From assembly GCA_020850755.1 (NCBI GenBank), contig JADZEB010000034.1:1-64000 (forward strand): 64,000 nt of DNA, given 5' to 3'. Positions 10,015 through 60,624 of this stretch are shown piece after piece. Within the stretch, counting starts at the first letter, position 1, and each line of letters begins with the position of its first letter. The position numbers and the translations under genes were made by a program. The notes under the pieces are model-generated. The model saw nothing but the letters and a program-made list of their open reading frames with translations, did not search any database and was not told the DNA's origin. This stretch comes from Alphaproteobacteria bacterium. Its GTDB lineage: Bacteria; Pseudomonadota; Alphaproteobacteria; Acetobacterales; Acetobacteraceae.

Positions 10015-10177
10015 CGGGACGTTCCTTCGCATCGGGTGGGGCGCGTCGAGGCGCGCGCGGGATCAGGCTCGGGCTAGCACGGAACCGCCGTGTCGGGCAA
10101 TGCGGCGGGGCGGCCCGGGGCAGGCGAGCGCGGTCCTGCGATGCCGCCTTTGCGCACGAACCGGCCGAAGGGAGGCG

Positions 10178-10299
10178 GCGCCCGATCCGGTGGAACCGCG
10201 CTGCGGTTCCGCCGGATGGGACCGGGCCGCTCGCAGATCGTCGGTTCCCAGGGCGCGGGTTCCGTTCGGCTGATCCAGCCCGGACGGGACGCGCCCTAG
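10178..10299 (-). repeat. Two-hairpin dispersed element, copy 1 (full, minus orientation)
   Basis: Contains hairpin B at 10185-10217 (ATCCGG...CCGGAT) and hairpin A at 10259-10290 (GTTCCGTTCGG...CCGGACGGGAC), joined by a conserved linker. It ends with CTAG at 10296-10299. Read on the minus strand the order is CTAG-border, A, linker, B. The TAG stop codon of the histidine phosphatase gene lies inside this border. Related copies are at 27891-28020, 29056-29185, 58529-58597 and 60495-60624. Confidence 0.8.
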
Positions 10300-10853
10300 C
10301 CGTGCTTCCAGTTGATCTCGGCCGGGGCGGCCGCGGTGGGGTCGGTGCGCAGGATCTCGCCATTCTGGACCTTGATCCCGGTGAAGCTGAGGATGAAACC
10401 CCAATGCGACACCACCAGCGTGTTCTGCCAGCCGGGCAGGGCGGCCATCTCGGCGCGGAAGGTGGCGGCGCGCGCCAGCACGGATTCCGCCGGCTCCTCG
10501 ATCGGCGGCCACCACACCTCGGGCACATGGGCGAAATCGAGTTCGGGCCAGGCGGCGGCCAGCTCGGTCGTGGGCGAGCCGATGTCGCAGGCGAAGGCGT
10601 AGCGCTCGCGCACCACGGGGTTGACCAGGATCGGCGCGCCGATCTCGGCCGCGACGATCGATGCGGTTTCCAGCGCGCGGGTATAGGGCGAGGCGATGAT
10701 GCGGTCGATCCGCTGCCCGCGCAGCTTCTGCCCGGCCTCGCGCGCCTGGGCGCGGCCGAGCTCGGTCAGGCGCGGATCGGGAATGCCCGGATCCTTGCGC
10801 GTGAGGGTGAACAGCGCGTTGAACTCGGACTGGCCGTGGCGCAGCAGGATCAT
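10296..10853 (-). CDS. Histidine phosphatase (phosphoglycerate-mutase-like) family protein
   Basis: 185 residues beginning MILLRHGQSEFNALF, the RHG motif with the phospho-accepting His6. Further elements: PRLTELGRAQAREAG, IIASPYTRALETA (second Arg), VVRERYAFACDIGS (acid), and VVSHWGFILSFTG (second catalytic His). The substrate is unknown. Phosphoglycerate mutase activity is not implied because many members are phosphatases. The ATG at 10853 is chosen because longer frames run through AATQAATQAA low-complexity sequence. The stop codon overlaps the border of repeat copy 1. It separates secB from timA, which are often close in related genomes. Confidence 0.87.
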   Translation of the reverse strand: MILLRHGQSEFNALFTLTRKDPGIPDPRLTELGRAQAREAGQKLRGQRIDRIIASPYTRALETASIVAAEIGAPILVNPVVRERYAFACDIGSPTTELAAAWPELDFAHVPEVWWPPIEEPAESVLARAATFRAEMAALPGWQNTLVVSHWGFILSFTGIKVQNGEILRTDPTAAAPAEINWKHG

Positions 10854-11146
10854 CGGCGGACCATTGCGGGGTGTGGGCGCAGGATGCGGGCGCGGTTCGG
10901 CGCGGGGGCTGTTGTAAAGCCCAGGCGCGCGGATGCGCAACGGGCAGGCGCGGTCCCGTGCGCGGGCGGCGGCCTGGGTGGCGGCCTGGGTGGCGGCCTG
11001 GCGGGTGGTGCCGGGGCCGGACCCTTTTCGCGGGGGATTCGCTTGTGATTCATTCCTTGCGCCCTTATGTGTTAGATAATTCCGGACCAGCCGGATGTGA
11101 TCCCGCCCCGTCTTGCCGGGCGGGCGCGACACGGATGAACGGCGCA

Positions 11147-11848
11147 ATGCCAGTCGATCTCATATTGTTCGGCATGGTTGCGGCCTTCCTGGTGCTGCGG
11201 CTGATCAGCGTGCTTGGCCGCCGCACCGGACATGAGCGGCCGCCCCAGCCCTACCAGCCGCCCGGCATGCCGCCGGCGCCCCGTCCCGGCGAGGCCCCCC
11301 GGGCCGAGGAAGCGCGCTCCCTCCCCGCCCCCGTTCCCGCACCCCCGCCGGACGCCTTCGCCGCCACCGCCGCGCGCGGCCTGCCCGACGCCAACAGCCT
11401 GGCCGGACAGGGGCTTGCCCGCATCCGCGAGGCCGATCCGAGCTTCGATCCGCAGCGCTTCCTGCAGAACGCCCAGGCGGCCTTCGGCATGATCATCGCC
11501 GGTTTCGCCCGCGGCGACCGCGATGCGCTGCGCGCCCTGTTGTCGCCTGACGTGTTCGCCGGCTTCGAGGCCGCGATCACCGAGCGCGAGAAGGCCGGCG
11601 AAACCGCCCGTACCGAGCTTATCACCGTGCGCGAGGCGACCATCACCAGCGCCCAGCTGCGCGATCGCGTTGCCGCCGTCACGATCAAGCTGATCAGCGA
11701 CCAGGTCAGCTGGGTGCGCGACGCCAAGGGCGAGATCGTGTCGGGTTCGGAGGCGGTGACCGAGGTTGCCGACCAGTGGACCTTCGCCCGCGACCTCAAC
11801 TCGTCCGACCCGACCTGGCTGCTGGTCGGCACCGAGAGCGGCGACTAG
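11147..11848 (+). CDS. Tim44-like domain protein (TimA type)
   Basis: 233 residues. The N-terminus is a single membrane anchor (PVDLILFGMVAAFLVLRLISVLGRRTGHE), then a Pro-rich linker to about residue 75, then a Tim44/ImpB-type domain (RIREADPSFDPQRFLQNAQAAFGMIIAGFARGDRDALRALLSPDVFAGFEAAI ... ADQWTFARDLNSSDPTWLLVGTE). Bacterial homologs of mitochondrial Tim44 are inner-membrane-anchored periplasm- or cytoplasm-facing proteins of uncertain role. An alternative ATG at 11135 adds four residues. Its place between secB and mltA is the conserved alphaproteobacterial arrangement. Confidence 0.9.
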   Translation: MPVDLILFGMVAAFLVLRLISVLGRRTGHERPPQPYQPPGMPPAPRPGEAPRAEEARSLPAPVPAPPPDAFAATAARGLPDANSLAGQGLARIREADPSFDPQRFLQNAQAAFGMIIAGFARGDRDALRALLSPDVFAGFEAAITEREKAGETARTELITVREATITSAQLRDRVAAVTIKLISDQVSWVRDAKGEIVSGSEAVTEVADQWTFARDLNSSDPTWLLVGTESGD

Positions 11849-26583: not shown

Positions 26584-27894
26584 ATGAGCGGCCCCGATCC
26601 CGCCCCGCCCGGCAGCGGAAGCCTGCCACCCGAAAGCCTGCCGCCCGAACCCGAGGCGGATGCGCTCGTCTCGGGCCAGTACGAGGCCTACCCCTATCCC
26701 GAGCGCGACCCGAAGGACGAGGCCAGGCGCCTGCTCACCGGATCGCCCTCGCATCTGCTCGAGATCGACTACTGGGTGTTCGGCGCGGCGCGGCCGAAAA
26801 GCCGCCCGCTCGCGGCGCTGATCGCGGGCGGGGGCACCGGCGACGCCTGCATCATGCTGGCCCAGCAGCTCGCCTCGGCCGGGCGGCCGGGACAGGTGAC
26901 CTATCTCGACCTCTCCACCGCCTCGCGCGCGGTGGCGGAGAAGCGAGCGGCGGCGCGCGCGCTGGGCAACATCGCCTTCCGCACGGGCTCGCTGCTCGAC
27001 CTGCCGAAGATGGGCATGTGCCCGTTCGAATACATCGATTGCTGCGGCGTCTTGCACCATCTCGCCGATCCGGCGGCGGGGCTGGCGGCCCTTCTGTCCG
27101 TGCTCGCGCCGGGGGGCGGCATCGGGCTTATGGTCTATGCACCCTATGGCCGCACCGGCGTCTATCCGATGCAGGCGGCCCTGCGCGCCCTTGCCCCGGC
27201 CACGCTGCCGGCGCCGGCGCGCGTCGATCTTGCGCGGCGGCTCTACAAGCAGCTGCCCGAAACCAACTGGATGCGCCGCAACCACCTGATCGTCGATCAC
27301 GTCAAGGGCGGGGACGCCGGCCTGTTCGACCTGTTCCTGCATGCGCGCGACCGGCCCTATACGGTGGGCGCGCTCGATGCGCTGGTGCGCGGGGCGGGGC
27401 TTCGCATCGTCGCCCTGATGGAGCCGGCGCGCTACGACCCGGCACTCTATCTCTCCGATCCCCGGCTCAAGGCGCGGCTCGAAGGGCTCGATACGCTCGC
27501 GCGCGCCGGCCTGGCCGAGCAGATCGCCGGCAATATGGGCATCCACATCGCCTATCTGGTGCGCGAGGCCGAGGCGCGCGCCCTGCCCGATCCGGCCGAT
27601 CCCGCCGCCGTGCCGGTGATCAAGAGCATGGACGGGGCGCAGCTTGCCCGCGCCATCCGTCCCGACGGCACGATGGGCGTCTCCTTCGACGGCATCACGC
27701 TTTCCCTGCCCTTGCCGCGCCGCGCGGCGGCGATCATCCAGCGCATCGACGGGGTGCGCGCGCTGGGCGCGATCCATGCCGACATGGCGGCCGCCGTCGG
27801 CACCTTGTCGTGGGAGGCGTTCGCGCGCGACTGGCTGGCGGTCTGGCACGCGCTCAACGGTTTCAACCGCATCTTCCTCGCCGCGCCCGACTAG
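26584..27894 (+). CDS. Class I SAM-dependent methyltransferase
   Basis: 436 residues. The N-terminus QYEAYPYPERDPKDEARRLL is typical of a family of larger bacterial methyltransferases. The SAM-binding core follows: PLAALIAGGGTGDACIMLAQQL (motif I), VTYLDLSTASRAVAEKRA (motif II), GSLLDLPKM, and EYIDCCGVLHHLADPAAGLAALLSVLAPGGGIGLMVYAP. The C-terminal 180 residues look like a helical/winged-helix-like accessory domain (TMGVSFDGITLSLPLPRRAAAIIQRIDG). Substrate unknown. The stop codon (CTAG) overlaps the border of repeat copy 2. Confidence 0.85.
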   Translation: MSGPDPAPPGSGSLPPESLPPEPEADALVSGQYEAYPYPERDPKDEARRLLTGSPSHLLEIDYWVFGAARPKSRPLAALIAGGGTGDACIMLAQQLASAGRPGQVTYLDLSTASRAVAEKRAAARALGNIAFRTGSLLDLPKMGMCPFEYIDCCGVLHHLADPAAGLAALLSVLAPGGGIGLMVYAPYGRTGVYPMQAALRALAPATLPAPARVDLARRLYKQLPETNWMRRNHLIVDHVKGGDAGLFDLFLHARDRPYTVGALDALVRGAGLRIVALMEPARYDPALYLSDPRLKARLEGLDTLARAGLAEQIAGNMGIHIAYLVREAEARALPDPADPAAVPVIKSMDGAQLARAIRPDGTMGVSFDGITLSLPLPRRAAAIIQRIDGVRALGAIHADMAAAVGTLSWEAFARDWLAVWHALNGFNRIFLAAPD

Positions 27895-28020
27895 AGCGGC
27901 GTCCGATCTGGTGGAAACGCAGCGCCGTTCCACCAGATCGGACCAGGCTTCTCGCGAACCTTGGGTTTCTCGGGCACGTTCCGTTCGGCGGGTTCAAGCC
28001 GAACGGAACATGCCCTGGGG
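27891..28020 (-). repeat. Two-hairpin dispersed element, copy 2 (full, minus orientation)
   Basis: Hairpin B at 27905-27939 has perfect 12-bp arms (GATCTGGTGGAA / TTCCACCAGATC). Hairpin A at 27978-28009 also has perfect 12-bp arms (GTTCCGTTCGGC / GCCGAACGGAAC). The B-side border starts CTAGAGCGGCGTCC and includes the TAG stop of the upstream methyltransferase gene. The linker is more diverged than in copies 1 and 3. Confidence 0.85.
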
Positions 28021-28027
28021 CGCCCGC

Positions 28028-28945
28028 TCAGGCGCCGCGCTGCGGGACCGATTTCATGCGCGCTTCGCGGCGTGCGATCGCCATCGTCGCGGCGAAGATC
28101 ACCACCGCGCCGAGCCAGCTCCAGCCGTCCATCACCTCGCCGAAGGCGAGCCAGCCAAGGCAGGCGCCGAAGGGCAGGCGGGCGAAATCGAACGGCGCCA
28201 CGAAGCCGGCATCGGCCAGCGCGAAGGCGCGGCTGGCGCAGACCTGGCCGATCACCGACATGGTGGCGAGCCCGAAGGTGGCCAGGAGCTCCATCGCCGT
28301 CGGCCACTGCCAGGCCATCAGCGCCGGCGGCAGCGAGACCGGCGTCATGATCAGCGTCATCATCAGGACGATGGTCCCCGGCGGCTCGGTGCGGGCGAGC
28401 GCCTTCAGCATCAACATCACCGCCGCCATCATCACCGCCGCGCCGATCGGCAGGAGCGCCACCGGCTCGAAGCTGGCGAGGCCCGGGCGCACGATGATCG
28501 CGCTGCCGAGGAAGCCCACGATCACCGCCGCCCAGCGCCCGCCATCGATGCGTTCGCGCAGGACCAGCGCTGCGCCCAGGGTGGCGAAGATCGGCGCGGT
28601 GAAGTTCAGCGCCGTGGCGCGGTCGATCGGCATCAGCGCCAGCCCGGCGAACCAGAGATAGATCGTCAGGAGCTGCGTCAGGGAGCGCGCGACATAGAGC
28701 CAGAAGCGGCGCCGACTGACCGCGCCCAGCGCGCCGCGCGCGATCACCGGCGAGAGCACCAGGATCGACAGGACATTGCGCCAGAACACCACCACCACGA
28801 CCGGCAGGGTCTGCGATGCATAGCGGGTGCAGAGATTGGCGCTCGCCGCGCCCGCGGCGAAGGCGAACATCCAGAGGGCGGCGCGCACCGGCACCGGCCA
28901 GGCGCCCATGCCGCGCGCGGGCGGGGGTGGTGGCGCGGCGCTCAT
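28028..28945 (-). CDS. EamA/DMT-family drug-metabolite transporter
   Basis: 305 residues with ten predicted helices in two EamA repeats. First repeat: NLCTRYASQTLPVVVVVFWRNVLSIL, YLWFAGLALMPIDRATALNFTAPIFATLGAALVLRERI with the conserved Glu-Arg end, GFLGSAIIVRPG. Second repeat: VIGQVCASRAFALADAGFVAPFDFARLPFGACLGWLAFGEVMD. The substrate is unknown. Members export amino acids, metabolites or S-adenosylmethionine. The 3' end faces repeat copy 2. Confidence 0.87.
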   Translation of the reverse strand: MSAAPPPPPARGMGAWPVPVRAALWMFAFAAGAASANLCTRYASQTLPVVVVVFWRNVLSILVLSPVIARGALGAVSRRRFWLYVARSLTQLLTIYLWFAGLALMPIDRATALNFTAPIFATLGAALVLRERIDGGRWAAVIVGFLGSAIIVRPGLASFEPVALLPIGAAVMMAAVMLMLKALARTEPPGTIVLMMTLIMTPVSLPPALMAWQWPTAMELLATFGLATMSVIGQVCASRAFALADAGFVAPFDFARLPFGACLGWLAFGEVMDGWSWLGAVVIFAATMAIARREARMKSVPQRGA

Positions 28946-29055
28946 GCGCGGGCAGGCCCGGGCGCCCGGGGCGCACGGAGGAGGGGGGCGGGAGTTCGGG
29001 GAGGGGCGGCGGACGACATCGCGACCGAGAGCCTAAGCGCCCGCGCCCTGTCCGC

Positions 29056-29185
29056 CTAGGGCGCGTTCCGTTCGCGCTGGATCAGCCGAACGGAAGCCGT
29101 GCCCTGGGAACGGACGATCTACGAGCAGCCTGGTTCCATCCGGCGGAACCGCAGCGCGGCGCCACCGGATCGGACGCTGCTCCAG
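29056..29185 (+). repeat. Two-hairpin dispersed element, copy 3 (full, plus orientation)
   Basis: CTAG border at 29056-29059, hairpin A at 29065-29095 (GTTCCGTTCG...CGAACGGAA), linker GCCCTGGGAACGGACGATCT, and hairpin B at 29138-29170 (ATCCGGCGGAACC...CCACCGGAT), ending GCTGCTCCAG. This copy lies between divergent promoters, not at a stop codon. It is the reverse complement of copy 1 with few differences. Confidence 0.85.
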
Positions 29186-54041: not shown

Positions 54042-54126
54042 GGGAGCGTGGTGGAACCGGTAGACACACTGGACTTAAAATCCAAGGGCGCAAGCCGTGC
54101 GGGTTCGAGTCCCGCCGCTCCTACCA
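54042..54126 (+). tRNA. tRNA-Leu, anticodon TAA
   Basis: 85 nt including encoded CCA. Acceptor arms GGGAGCG (54042-54048) and CGCTCCT (54116-54122, with one G-U pair), discriminator A, then CCA. D-arm TGGAACCGGTAGACAC, anticodon loop CTTAAAA giving UAA, long variable arm GGGCGCAAGCCGT and T-arm GCGGGTTCGAGTCCCGC. The long variable arm is class II, as expected for Leu. The anticodon reads UUA/UUG codons, which are rare in a genome of this GC content. Confidence 0.95.
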
Positions 54127-57278: not shown

Positions 57279-57550
57279 CCGCCATCGCGCCGGGGCGGGC
57301 TCGGTTCGGCTCCGATCATCCGAACGGGCATGGCTCTCCCCCGGCAGCCTCGAACTCGCGGGCAGGCAGGCCTGCCCTGAAGGAGTTGCGCTGCCGCCCC
57401 GCCGGAACAGACGCGGCTTCATGCAGTGCATTGAGCCCGTGGCGCGTGACAAAGCGCGCGCGGGGCCGCACCATCGCGCATCGCACCCGCCCGCCGCGCC
57501 CGAGTCGAATGTGCCGCACACGGACGCCGCCCCTGTTGGAACGCCCGCGC
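57279..57550. other. Region between the flavoprotein remnant and mepA
   Basis: 272 bp. It contains a degenerate hairpin-A-like palindrome (57303-57335) and otherwise nothing recognisable. The mepA promoter should lie here. Confidence 0.35.
57303..57335 (+). repeat. Degenerate hairpin-A remnant of the dispersed element
   Basis: GTTCGG (57304-57309) and CCGAAC (57320-57325) around CTCCGATCAT, then GGGCATGGCTC. It resembles hairpin A plus the start of the linker, without hairpin B. Confidence 0.4.
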
Positions 57551-58531
57551 ATGACCCCGCTGTTGCGCACGCACCCTGTCCGCGCCCGGTTCCGGGCATG
57601 GCCGCGCCCTGCCTGGCGGCTCGCCCGCCTCCTCCCTTCGGTCGGGCTCCTGACCGCGCTGCTGGCCGGGCTGCCGGTCGCCCTGTTCGCCCCCGCGCCC
57701 GCCGCTGCCCAGCGCGAGCCGAGCCAGACCGCGCTGCGCTTCGCCGCCGTGCGCCAGCCTTCGGCCGGGCTGGCGCAGGTGATCGGCAAGCCCACCGCCG
57801 GCTGCATCGCCGGCGCCGTCGCCCTGCCGCATGAGGGCCCGGGCTACCAGGTGGTGCGCATCAGCCGCAACCGCTTCTACGGCCACCCCGTGACCATCGA
57901 TTTCGTGCACGCCCTCGGCCGCGCCGCGCGCGAGGCGGGGCTGCCCGCCCTCTATGTCGGCGACCTGTCGCAGCCGCGCGGCGGGCCGATGACCTTCGGC
58001 CATGCCAGCCACCAGAGCGGACTGGACGCCGATATCTGGTTCACGCTCGCGCCCAAGCCCAACCTGCCGGCGGCGGCGCGGGAAAGCTTCGCCTCGCCCT
58101 CGCTGGTCAGGCCTGACCAGATGGCGGTCGATCGCGCGCAATGGCGCCCGGCCCACGCCGCCCTGCTGCGGCTGGCCGCGACCCGGCCCGGGGTGGACCG
58201 CGTGCTGGTGCACCCGGCGATCAAGCAGGAGCTTTGCCGCACCGTGACCGGCGACCGTTCCTGGCTGCGCCGGGTGCGGCCCTGGTACGGGCACAATTCC
58301 CACTTCCATGTCCGCATGCGCTGTCCCGGCGACAGCCCGGACTGCGAAGCCTTCCCCGAGGCCCCGGCGGGCGATGGCTGCGACCGCAGCCTGGAATGGT
58401 GGTTCACCGAGGCGTTCCGCCCCCGGCCCCGTCCGCGCCCGCCGGCCACGCCTCCGCGCCCGCGCGAGCCGATCCTGCCGGTCGCCTGCGAGGCGGTGCT
58501 GGGCGCCGCGAACGCCAGCCTGCGGCGGTAG
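57551..58531 (+). CDS. mepA: Penicillin-insensitive murein DD-endopeptidase (MepA/LAS family)
   Basis: 326 residues. Cleaves D-Ala-mDAP crosslinks in peptidoglycan. Signal peptide ends AAAQREPSQ after a hydrophobic segment (VGLLTALLAGLPVALFAPAPAAAQ). LAS zinc site: MTFGHASHQSGLDADIWF (H-x-x-H..GLDxD), and the second motif HNSHFHVRMRCPGDSPDCE with the HxH ligands. DRSWLRRVRPWYGHNSHFHVRM is the MepA signature. A Pro/Arg tail (PRPRPRPPATPPRP) follows. The ATG at 57551 gives a good signal. The TAG stop lies inside repeat copy 4. Confidence 0.92.
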   Translation: MTPLLRTHPVRARFRAWPRPAWRLARLLPSVGLLTALLAGLPVALFAPAPAAAQREPSQTALRFAAVRQPSAGLAQVIGKPTAGCIAGAVALPHEGPGYQVVRISRNRFYGHPVTIDFVHALGRAAREAGLPALYVGDLSQPRGGPMTFGHASHQSGLDADIWFTLAPKPNLPAAARESFASPSLVRPDQMAVDRAQWRPAHAALLRLAATRPGVDRVLVHPAIKQELCRTVTGDRSWLRRVRPWYGHNSHFHVRMRCPGDSPDCEAFPEAPAGDGCDRSLEWWFTEAFRPRPRPRPPATPPRPREPILPVACEAVLGAANASLRR

Positions 58532-58597
58532 GGCAGGTTCCGTTCGGGCCGGATCAGCCGGACGGAACTCGTGCCCTGGAAACGGACGCCGCTCCAG
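58529..58597 (+). repeat. Two-hairpin dispersed element, copy 4 (hairpin A only)
   Basis: TAGGGCAGGTTCCG starts at the mepA stop, hairpin A has arms GTTCCGTTCG...CGGACGGAAC, and the linker begins CGTGCCCTGG and ends GCTCCAG at 58597. Hairpin B is missing, so this is an internal-deletion copy. The stop codon TAG of mepA (58529-58531) coincides with the border. Confidence 0.75.
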
Positions 58598-58851: not shown

Positions 58852-60498
58852 ATGACGATGTGGGGCCATGAGGACATGCCGCGCCTGTCGCGGCGGCAGG
58901 CTTTGCGGTTGGGTGGCGGTGCGGCGGCGCTTCTGGCCGTCGCCTTCGGCGGTAACCCGGCGCGCGCGCAGGCCGTGTCCCAGCCCGGCTCTGGCGCCGC
59001 GCTGACCGATCCGGTCGCCCGCTTCTTCGATGCGCGCGGCGGGGCGGCCGCCTTCGTCTCGCCCACGGGCTTCACCCCGGCCGGGCAGGCGCTGATCGCG
59101 CGCCTGCGTCGCGCCGCCGAGGACGGGCTCGACCCCGCCTACTATGCCATTCCCGATCCGGCCGCCGCCTTCGCCGATGCCGATGCCGCCCGCCGCGCCG
59201 ACTGGGCGCTGGCCCGCGCCGCTGCGAGCTTCATCGCCGACCTGGCCGGCGGGCGTGTGCGCAGCCTGCCCAACCGCCCCGACATTCTGCGCGCCCCGCT
59301 CACCTTCGACATGGCCGAGGCGCTCGGCCGCATCGCCGCCTCGGCCGATCCGGCCATGGCGGTGGACGGCTTCCAGCCGACCGACGCGGCCTATCGCGCC
59401 CTACGCGCCGAGCTTGCCCGCCTGCGCAGCCAGACCATGGCCGGCGCCACCGAGATCCGCCGTATCCCGGCCGGGCCCACCATCGATCCCGGCCAGCGCA
59501 ATCCGCGCGTCGCCATCCTGCGCGAGCGGCTGGCCGCCGCTGGCTTCCAGCTCGCCTCGGCCGAGGCGAGCGACCACTACGACCCCGATCTGGTCGCGGC
59601 GGTGAAGCGCTTCCAGGCGCAGAACGGCCTCAATGCCGATGGCCGCCTCGGCCGCGGCACGGTGCAGGCGCTGAACGAGGGCCCCTCCGATCGCATCAAC
59701 CAGATCCGCGTGGCGATGGACATGCGCCGCTCGCTGGTGCCGGACGAGGCGGTGTCGGTCGAGGTCAACGTCCCTGAATATCGCCTGCGCGTCACCGAAA
59801 GCGGCCGCGTCACGCTGGACATGGCGGTGGTGGTGGGCCGGCCCGGCCGCGCCACGCCGATGCTGCGCACGCGCCTGACCCACGCCCTGTTCAACCCGCC
59901 CTGGGGCGTGCCGGAAAAGCTCGCGCGCGAGGACCTGTTGCCGCGCTTCCGCCGCGACCCGCAGGCCATGGCCGAACGCGGCTTCCGCGTCTTCCAGCGC
60001 GTCGAGGGCCAGGTGGTCGAGGTCGATCCGCGCACGGTGGACTGGACCCAGGTCAACCAGCGCGCTTTCCCCTATTACGTGCGCCAGAATCCCGGCGCGG
60101 CGAACGCGCTCGGCCGGCTGCGGCTGACCATGCCCAACCGCGACGACATCTTCATGCACGACACGCCGGACAGGCACTACTTCCGGCGCGAGATGCGCGC
60201 CTACAGCTCGGGCTGCATCCGGCTCGAGAAGCCGATCGAGCTGACCGCCTTCCTGCTCGCCAGCAATCCCGGCTGGGGCCGCGAGCGGATCGAGGCGGCG
60301 ATCGAGCGGCGCGGCACCGCCGGCGTGCCGGCGCAGCGCACGATCCAGACCGTGATCGCCTATCGCACCGTCGTGGTGGGCGCGGATGGGCGCGTCACCT
60401 ACTGGCGCGACATCTACAATCTCGACCACGCCTATCTGCGCGCGATGGATGCGCAGCGCCGCCCGGTGGGCGCCGAGACGCAGCTCGCCGCGCGCTAG
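58852..60498 (+). CDS. YcbB-type L,D-transpeptidase (peptidoglycan 3-3 crosslinking)
   Basis: 548 residues. Signal: LSRRQALRLGGGAAALLAVAFGGNPARAQA, a twin-arginine-like start. Domain order matches LdtD/YcbB: an N-terminal scaffold domain (about 60-200), a PG_binding_1 domain (AILRERLAAAGFQ ... DPDLVAAVKRFQAQNGLNADGRLGRGTVQALN), a YkuD catalytic domain (about 295-480) with DIFMHDTPDRHYFRREMRAYSSGCIRLEKPIEL, where the Cys in SSGCIRL is the nucleophile. The YcbB capping subdomain is inserted before it. AGGGAAC before the ATG at 58852. The stop lies in the border of repeat copy 5. DUF882 follows. Confidence 0.93.
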   Translation: MTMWGHEDMPRLSRRQALRLGGGAAALLAVAFGGNPARAQAVSQPGSGAALTDPVARFFDARGGAAAFVSPTGFTPAGQALIARLRRAAEDGLDPAYYAIPDPAAAFADADAARRADWALARAAASFIADLAGGRVRSLPNRPDILRAPLTFDMAEALGRIAASADPAMAVDGFQPTDAAYRALRAELARLRSQTMAGATEIRRIPAGPTIDPGQRNPRVAILRERLAAAGFQLASAEASDHYDPDLVAAVKRFQAQNGLNADGRLGRGTVQALNEGPSDRINQIRVAMDMRRSLVPDEAVSVEVNVPEYRLRVTESGRVTLDMAVVVGRPGRATPMLRTRLTHALFNPPWGVPEKLAREDLLPRFRRDPQAMAERGFRVFQRVEGQVVEVDPRTVDWTQVNQRAFPYYVRQNPGAANALGRLRLTMPNRDDIFMHDTPDRHYFRREMRAYSSGCIRLEKPIELTAFLLASNPGWGRERIEAAIERRGTAGVPAQRTIQTVIAYRTVVVGADGRVTYWRDIYNLDHAYLRAMDAQRRPVGAETQLAAR

Positions 60499-60624
60499 TG
60501 CACGTTCCGCTCGGCTTCGATCGGCCGAACGGAAGTCGAGCCCGAGAAACCTGAGGTTCGCGAGCAGCCTGATTCGATCCGGCGGAGCCGCGCTGCGGGT
60601 CCAACAGGTCGGGCGCTGCTCCAG
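60495..60624 (+). repeat. Two-hairpin dispersed element, copy 5 (full, plus orientation)
   Basis: CTAG border at 60495-60498 contains the TAG stop of the L,D-transpeptidase gene. Hairpin A (CGTTCCGCTCGGC...GCCGAACGGAAG) follows, then the linker, hairpin B (ATCCGGCGG...), ending CTGCTCCAG at 60624. It is more diverged in the linker and the right arm of B than copies 1 and 3. Confidence 0.8.

Follow-up and report, generated by a model that had tools for sequence, protein, structure and literature searches.

What is the repeated two-hairpin element that occupies several spacers of this alphaproteobacterial contig, how does it move, and why do its copies lie so close to the ends of genes? The stretch of DNA analyzed here, referred to below as the window, comprises 64,000 nucleotides and carries six copies. 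The initial annotation described a dispersed two-hairpin family with CTAG borders, and all the copies that it listed indeed exist. Its count of five becomes six with inclusion of a decayed copy: the degenerate A hairpin noted at 57303–57335 is present but is not isolated, being part of a decayed full-length copy. The limits of the four near-full copies were refined by using a covariance model. The copies are as follows.

10169..10299, − strand: near-full copy that has lost the hairpin-B border (covariance model limits)
27891..28018, − strand: full copy with the best-preserved hairpins (covariance model match of 111.5 bits)
29056..29185, + strand: full 130-bp copy with CTAG as its left border and CCAG as its right border, not located at a stop codon
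57293..57419, + strand: strongly decayed full-length copy (nhmmer E = 3e-6) that contains the degenerate A hairpin at 57303–57335
58529..58597, + strand: internally deleted copy in which hairpin A is joined directly to the right-hand terminus, in agreement with its earlier description as a shorter copy without hairpin B
60495..60624, + strand: full 130-bp copy with left border CTAG at 60495–60498

The sole Rfam match within the window is a tRNA gene on the + strand (54042–54123).

Alignment of copies from across the genome reveals an element of 130 bp that extends from an outer CTAG to an outer CTAG. Within these sharp borders lie hairpin A (CTAGGGCACGTTCCGTTCGGCTTGGATCAGCCGAACGGAAGTCGTGCCC), a linker (GAGAAACTTAAGGTTTGC), and hairpin B (GAGCAGCTTAGTCCGATCTGGTGGAACCGCGCTGCGGTTCCACCAGATCGGACGCTGCTCTAG), such that two imperfect palindromes are separated by only a short linker. 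The hairpin arms of the copy at 27891..28018 are preserved at 16/16 and 17/18. Among 102 aligned copies, the outermost C is conserved in 95% and the outermost G in 97%, and the flanking bases beyond them show no consensus. The outer ends read C|TA|G(A/G)GC... and would serve as terminal inverted repeats. One typical, well-preserved copy located elsewhere in the genome yields a fold z of about −13 relative to dinucleotide shuffles, both as RNA and as DNA. Family-wide, 22 of the 40 predicted stem pairs show, in at least one sequence, substitution of both partners while pairing is preserved. There is no gene inside the 130-bp element, and no transposase gene is carried.

The genome is a 4.52-Mb draft consisting of 61 contigs, in which the covariance model identifies at least 110 non-redundant places occupied by the element; some of its matches are a single palindrome read again on the opposite strand. 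A blastn search of the genome returns dozens of full-length matches. The analyses below employ 102 complete copies, drawn from 1.15 Mb of sequence (the window and 60 further stretches) and from shorter loci. Exactly 130 bp is the length of 79 of these copies, and the most similar copies differ from one another by 1 to 5 nt, which indicates that amplification was fairly recent. Solitary B hairpins and internally deleted copies are also found, as are variants of 106 to 107 bp, including a 107-bp variant in the related genome G023. Several contigs (e.g., C24, C29, C8, C26, C42, and C15 of G000) terminate in or close to a copy, and the assembly seems to have been broken by the element copies themselves.

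Across the family, the same covariance model detected relatives of the element in 66 of 299 genomes and 36 of 102 genera, including the genome under study. When 385 genomes sampled from the class were searched with a model built from the family copies, further relatives were recovered in 21 additional genomes. The hairpin edges in these relatives are mostly CTAGAGC...GCTCTAG. Their stems have diverged through numerous paired changes. At one locus in a relative (L184 in G082), head-to-tail tandem copies that share a CTAG are interrupted by a stretch of Ns.

Gene ends were assigned with a simple codon-usage caller (coding density 0.87), which places 101 of the 102 copies between genes. The earlier statement that all copies are intergenic holds, with the correction that the adjoining gene is in most cases near enough for its stop codon to fall within the border. 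Specifically, the border CTAG supplies the exact TAG stop of a neighboring gene in 92 of 102 copies, with the stop residing at the A end in 30, at the B end in 41, and at both ends in 21, where the stops of two convergent genes are included. No clear preference for orientation relative to the stop is evident among the 92 stop-bearing copies. In the window, the left border CTAG at 27891–27894 carries the stop of a + strand methyltransferase-domain gene ending at 27894, and the A-side CTAG at 10296–10299 carries that of a − strand histidine-phosphatase gene (10296–11147). Likewise, the left border of the deleted copy carries the TAG stop (58529–58531) of an M74 endopeptidase gene, and the TAG in the left border of the copy at 60495..60624 is the stop of a YkuD-domain gene ending at 60498. 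TAG represents 42% of called stops (411/981; G000, sampled 1.15 Mb).

This coincidence exceeds that expected from the locations of other CTAG sequences. Outside the copies, CTAG is depleted about sevenfold in the sampled 1.15 Mb (417 observed versus 3034 expected). In a comparison set of stretches that were chosen for holding copies, such that fractions are usable and densities are not, 169 of 357 non-element noncoding CTAGs are at any stop (161 at one stop, 8 at two), and the copies differ from these with Fisher p values of 4e-16 when any stop is counted and 3e-9 when two stops are required. Compared with the remaining noncoding CTAGs, those at stop codons are favored about tenfold as sites of the element. 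Furthermore, 65 of 98 copies reside between convergent genes, versus 111 of 693 spacers (p = 4e-24).

Gene truncation was considered as a cause of the stop coincidence and was rejected. Element-free homologues end at the same codon (TAG/TAG or TAG/TAA), and the C terminus of the YkuD-domain protein is near the ends of its family relatives, with no truncation. Because stop positions are equal at unoccupied sites, the genes were not truncated by insertion.

Unoccupied sites were sought by comparing the joined flanks of copies from G082, G124, and G187 with sister species, all of which belong to different genera within the family. Two pairs of loci (L182/L228 and L179/L227) are informative. At the first site, the occupied sequence in G082 is ..GCCGACTT-CTAG[element]CTAG-CGTCTGTC, and the empty sequence in G202 is ..GCCGACTT-CTAG-CGTCTGTC. 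At the second, G202 carries a single CCAG (..GATGGCG-CCAG-AGCGCGTGCC) where G082 carries a copy. Several sites occupied in G124 lack the element in G187, in matches of lower similarity. Absence from orthologous loci, anticipated for close strains, is thus observed among related species. Most copies have CTAG at both ends, and two abutting copies in the genome under study (L134, 13910–13913) share exactly one CTAG, as expected if an insertion hit the CTAG end of an earlier copy. The target, TA within CTAG, is duplicated on insertion, and the duplicated unit would be either TA or the whole CTAG.

The ends of the element point to a source for the activity that moves it. Genome G082 carries an IS630-family element of about 1052 bp (L245) that has ends C|TA|GAGCGTTTTCCGATCAGT and in which two reading frames overlap at a run of six T. 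Similar elements with slightly different ends are present in G281, G068, G036, and G018. Intact IS630-family elements in relatives have ends that match the repeat, C|TA|GAGC...TTCCGATC, and the 130-bp form has GAGC...TTCCGATC in common with them. Moreover, the first 19 bases of the 107-bp variant in G023 (CTAGAGCGTTTTCCGATCA) are identical to the end of the G082 IS, and an annotated IS630 from Roseomonas mucosa exhibits the same end type. The match is partial for the element in the genome under study, whose ends agree with IS630 ends at 11 to 12 of 18 positions by manual count. IS630 itself is reported to target CTAG (Tenzen and Ohtsubo 1991, as cited in PMC6811581). The element therefore resembles IS630 and IS630-Tc1-mariner ISs in the ends found in relatives and in its target, but these ISs carry a transposase gene and the element does not.

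The mover with matching ends that the initial annotation sought was thus located in relatives and not in the genome itself, where searches of the 61-contig draft with PF13358 or with the G082 protein revealed no IS630 transposase. None was detected in the element-bearing draft genomes G202, G124, and G251. Most of the family genomes are drafts, and draft assemblies drop multicopy ISs. We infer that the mover has been lost from the genome under study or is missing in the draft. Given the similarity of the ends and the target, an IS630 transposase is the likely mover, and the element itself is very probably a MITE, a non-autonomous transposon, of the IS630/Tc1-mariner type. Two of the loci noted above (L182 and L228, in G082 and G202; joined-query ~1999–2095) also carry a two-hairpin repeat of another, unrelated kind (CTAGCGTCTGTCCGCC...CTGACAGACTCTAG), likewise bounded by CTAG, that is frequent in these relatives, and more than one such repeat family may use the IS630 route.

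Other movers were weighed against this proposal. An IS5-type transposase generating a 4-bp CTAG duplication would also fit the borders, and IS5-type elements use targets of the form YTAR. We consider this improbable, both because it is IS630 elements with matching ends that are found in relatives and because of the pattern seen when the outer left base is deviant (GTAG, TTAG, or ATAG). In these copies the opposite inner base is usually still C, as if only TA had been duplicated. Even less credible is a REP/BIME-type repeat mobilized by a Y1 transposase (TnpA_REP). The dispersal of palindromes close to gene ends speaks for such a system, and GTAG REPs have likewise been reported to provide TAG stops (PMC3733652), but the unit here is 130 bp, is bordered by CTAG on either side, and has duplicated its target. 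In addition, a search with PF01797 (Y1, TnpA_REP) found no match in the genome under study, whereas five control genomes matched, so the linked Y1 transposase that had been suggested is absent and an origin from REP/RAYT systems is largely refuted. Of the initial "REP/MITE-like" designation, the MITE portion is retained on the basis of more than 100 near-exclusively intergenic copies, the empty orthologous loci in related species, the duplicated CTAG, and the matching IS630-family ends in relatives, and the REP portion is dropped given the absence of Y1 and a unit far larger than a REP.

A different type of explanation is that the hosts have adopted the element, whatever its mobile origin, as a 3′-end module that is selected between convergent genes as a bidirectional terminator, an insulator, or a protector of mRNA ends. 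The excess of convergent contexts, the 21 copies whose ends include the stops of both genes, and the family-wide compensatory changes in the stems are all consistent with this proposal. However, the hairpins are not followed by any run of four or more T residues (the longest in the consensus is three), and therefore the element is not a canonical intrinsic terminator, in which a GC-rich hairpin precedes a T run. The same gene pair is occupied in one species and not in another, decayed and deleted copies exist, and compensatory changes can also come from palindrome repair or from a need for the ends to match. We therefore judge adoption by the host to be unlikely, although less so than either of the other movers. 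Neutral tolerance alone may be insufficient to yield the approximately tenfold enrichment at stop sites, and we count this, together with the partial match of the ends and the lack of a detected IS630 transposase in the genome under study and in several element-bearing relatives, against our preferred explanation.

If the element is an IS630-type MITE, the following route could account for its distribution. A transposase encoded elsewhere would insert the element at the TA of CTAG, leaving CTAG at both ends. CTAG is a rare target in this GC-rich genome and often marks a gene end (C followed by a TAG stop). With G as the first base of the element, TAG is rebuilt by an insertion that hits a stop codon and the protein is left intact; for convergent genes with one common CTAG, both stops are rebuilt. 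Such insertions would persist as nearly harmless events. Copies would thus accumulate at gene ends because the target is rare and often a gene end, and because the stop is rebuilt.

These findings suggest how an element could reach 100 copies with little harm, by using a target found mostly at stop codons and restoring the stop with its own first base. They also serve as a warning for annotation, as transposon sequence would account for many of the 3′ ends of genes and many of the spacers in genomes of this type, and assemblies seem to break into contigs at these repeats. Moreover, a likely mover can now be named for a class of hairpin repeats that is widespread in alphaproteobacteria. To our knowledge, no mover has been identified for repeats of the RIME and Bru-RS types. 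We tentatively raise the possibility, which we regard as somewhat doubtful, that alphaproteobacterial two-palindrome intergenic repeats overall, including RIME and Bru-RS, are IS630-type MITEs that spread by landing on CTAG stops and rebuilding TAG, with tail-to-tail gene pairs as the main safe site.

Among known repeats, the closest architecture is that of the rhizobial RIME1 type, which likewise has two palindromes in one short intergenic element (~108 bp). A 106-bp CTAGAGC...GCTCTAG two-hairpin repeat that occurs at 732 places in 242 plasmid records, mainly from Sinorhizobium and Rhizobium, is probably RIME1. The element described here differs from RIME1 in sequence and in length (130 bp, or 106 to 107 bp in variants). 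Neither a search of 250 kb of S. meliloti pSymB with the family model (R2) nor blastn of the element and its relatives against plasmids produced a match. Given that the models fail to recognize each other's sequences, we refrain from classifying the element as RIME. Bru-RS of Brucella, listed at 103 to 105 bp (PMC2267715), is similarly a short intergenic element with palindromes.

The supply of stop codons has precedent in BOX elements and in GTAG REPs, whose ends often provide TAG stops to flanking genes (PMC3733652). However, GTAG REPs are single hairpins of 20 to 40 bp with a tag at one end and are Y1-linked, with no Y1 present here, and what has precedent in these systems is close to the rule for the element described here. 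The closest functional parallel is RUP (repeat unit of pneumococcus) with IS630-Spn1. RUP is an IS630-Spn1-related MITE of ~107 bp that is non-coding (PMC2229807, PMC3049150), and it shares with the present element its TA targets, ends that match an IS630-family element, and enrichment between convergent genes. It belongs to another phylum and differs in sequence, whereas the element described here has two strong hairpins, targets CTAG rather than TA alone, and coincides far more strongly with stop codons. The present element is thus of a known kind, with an unusually strong stop-codon association.
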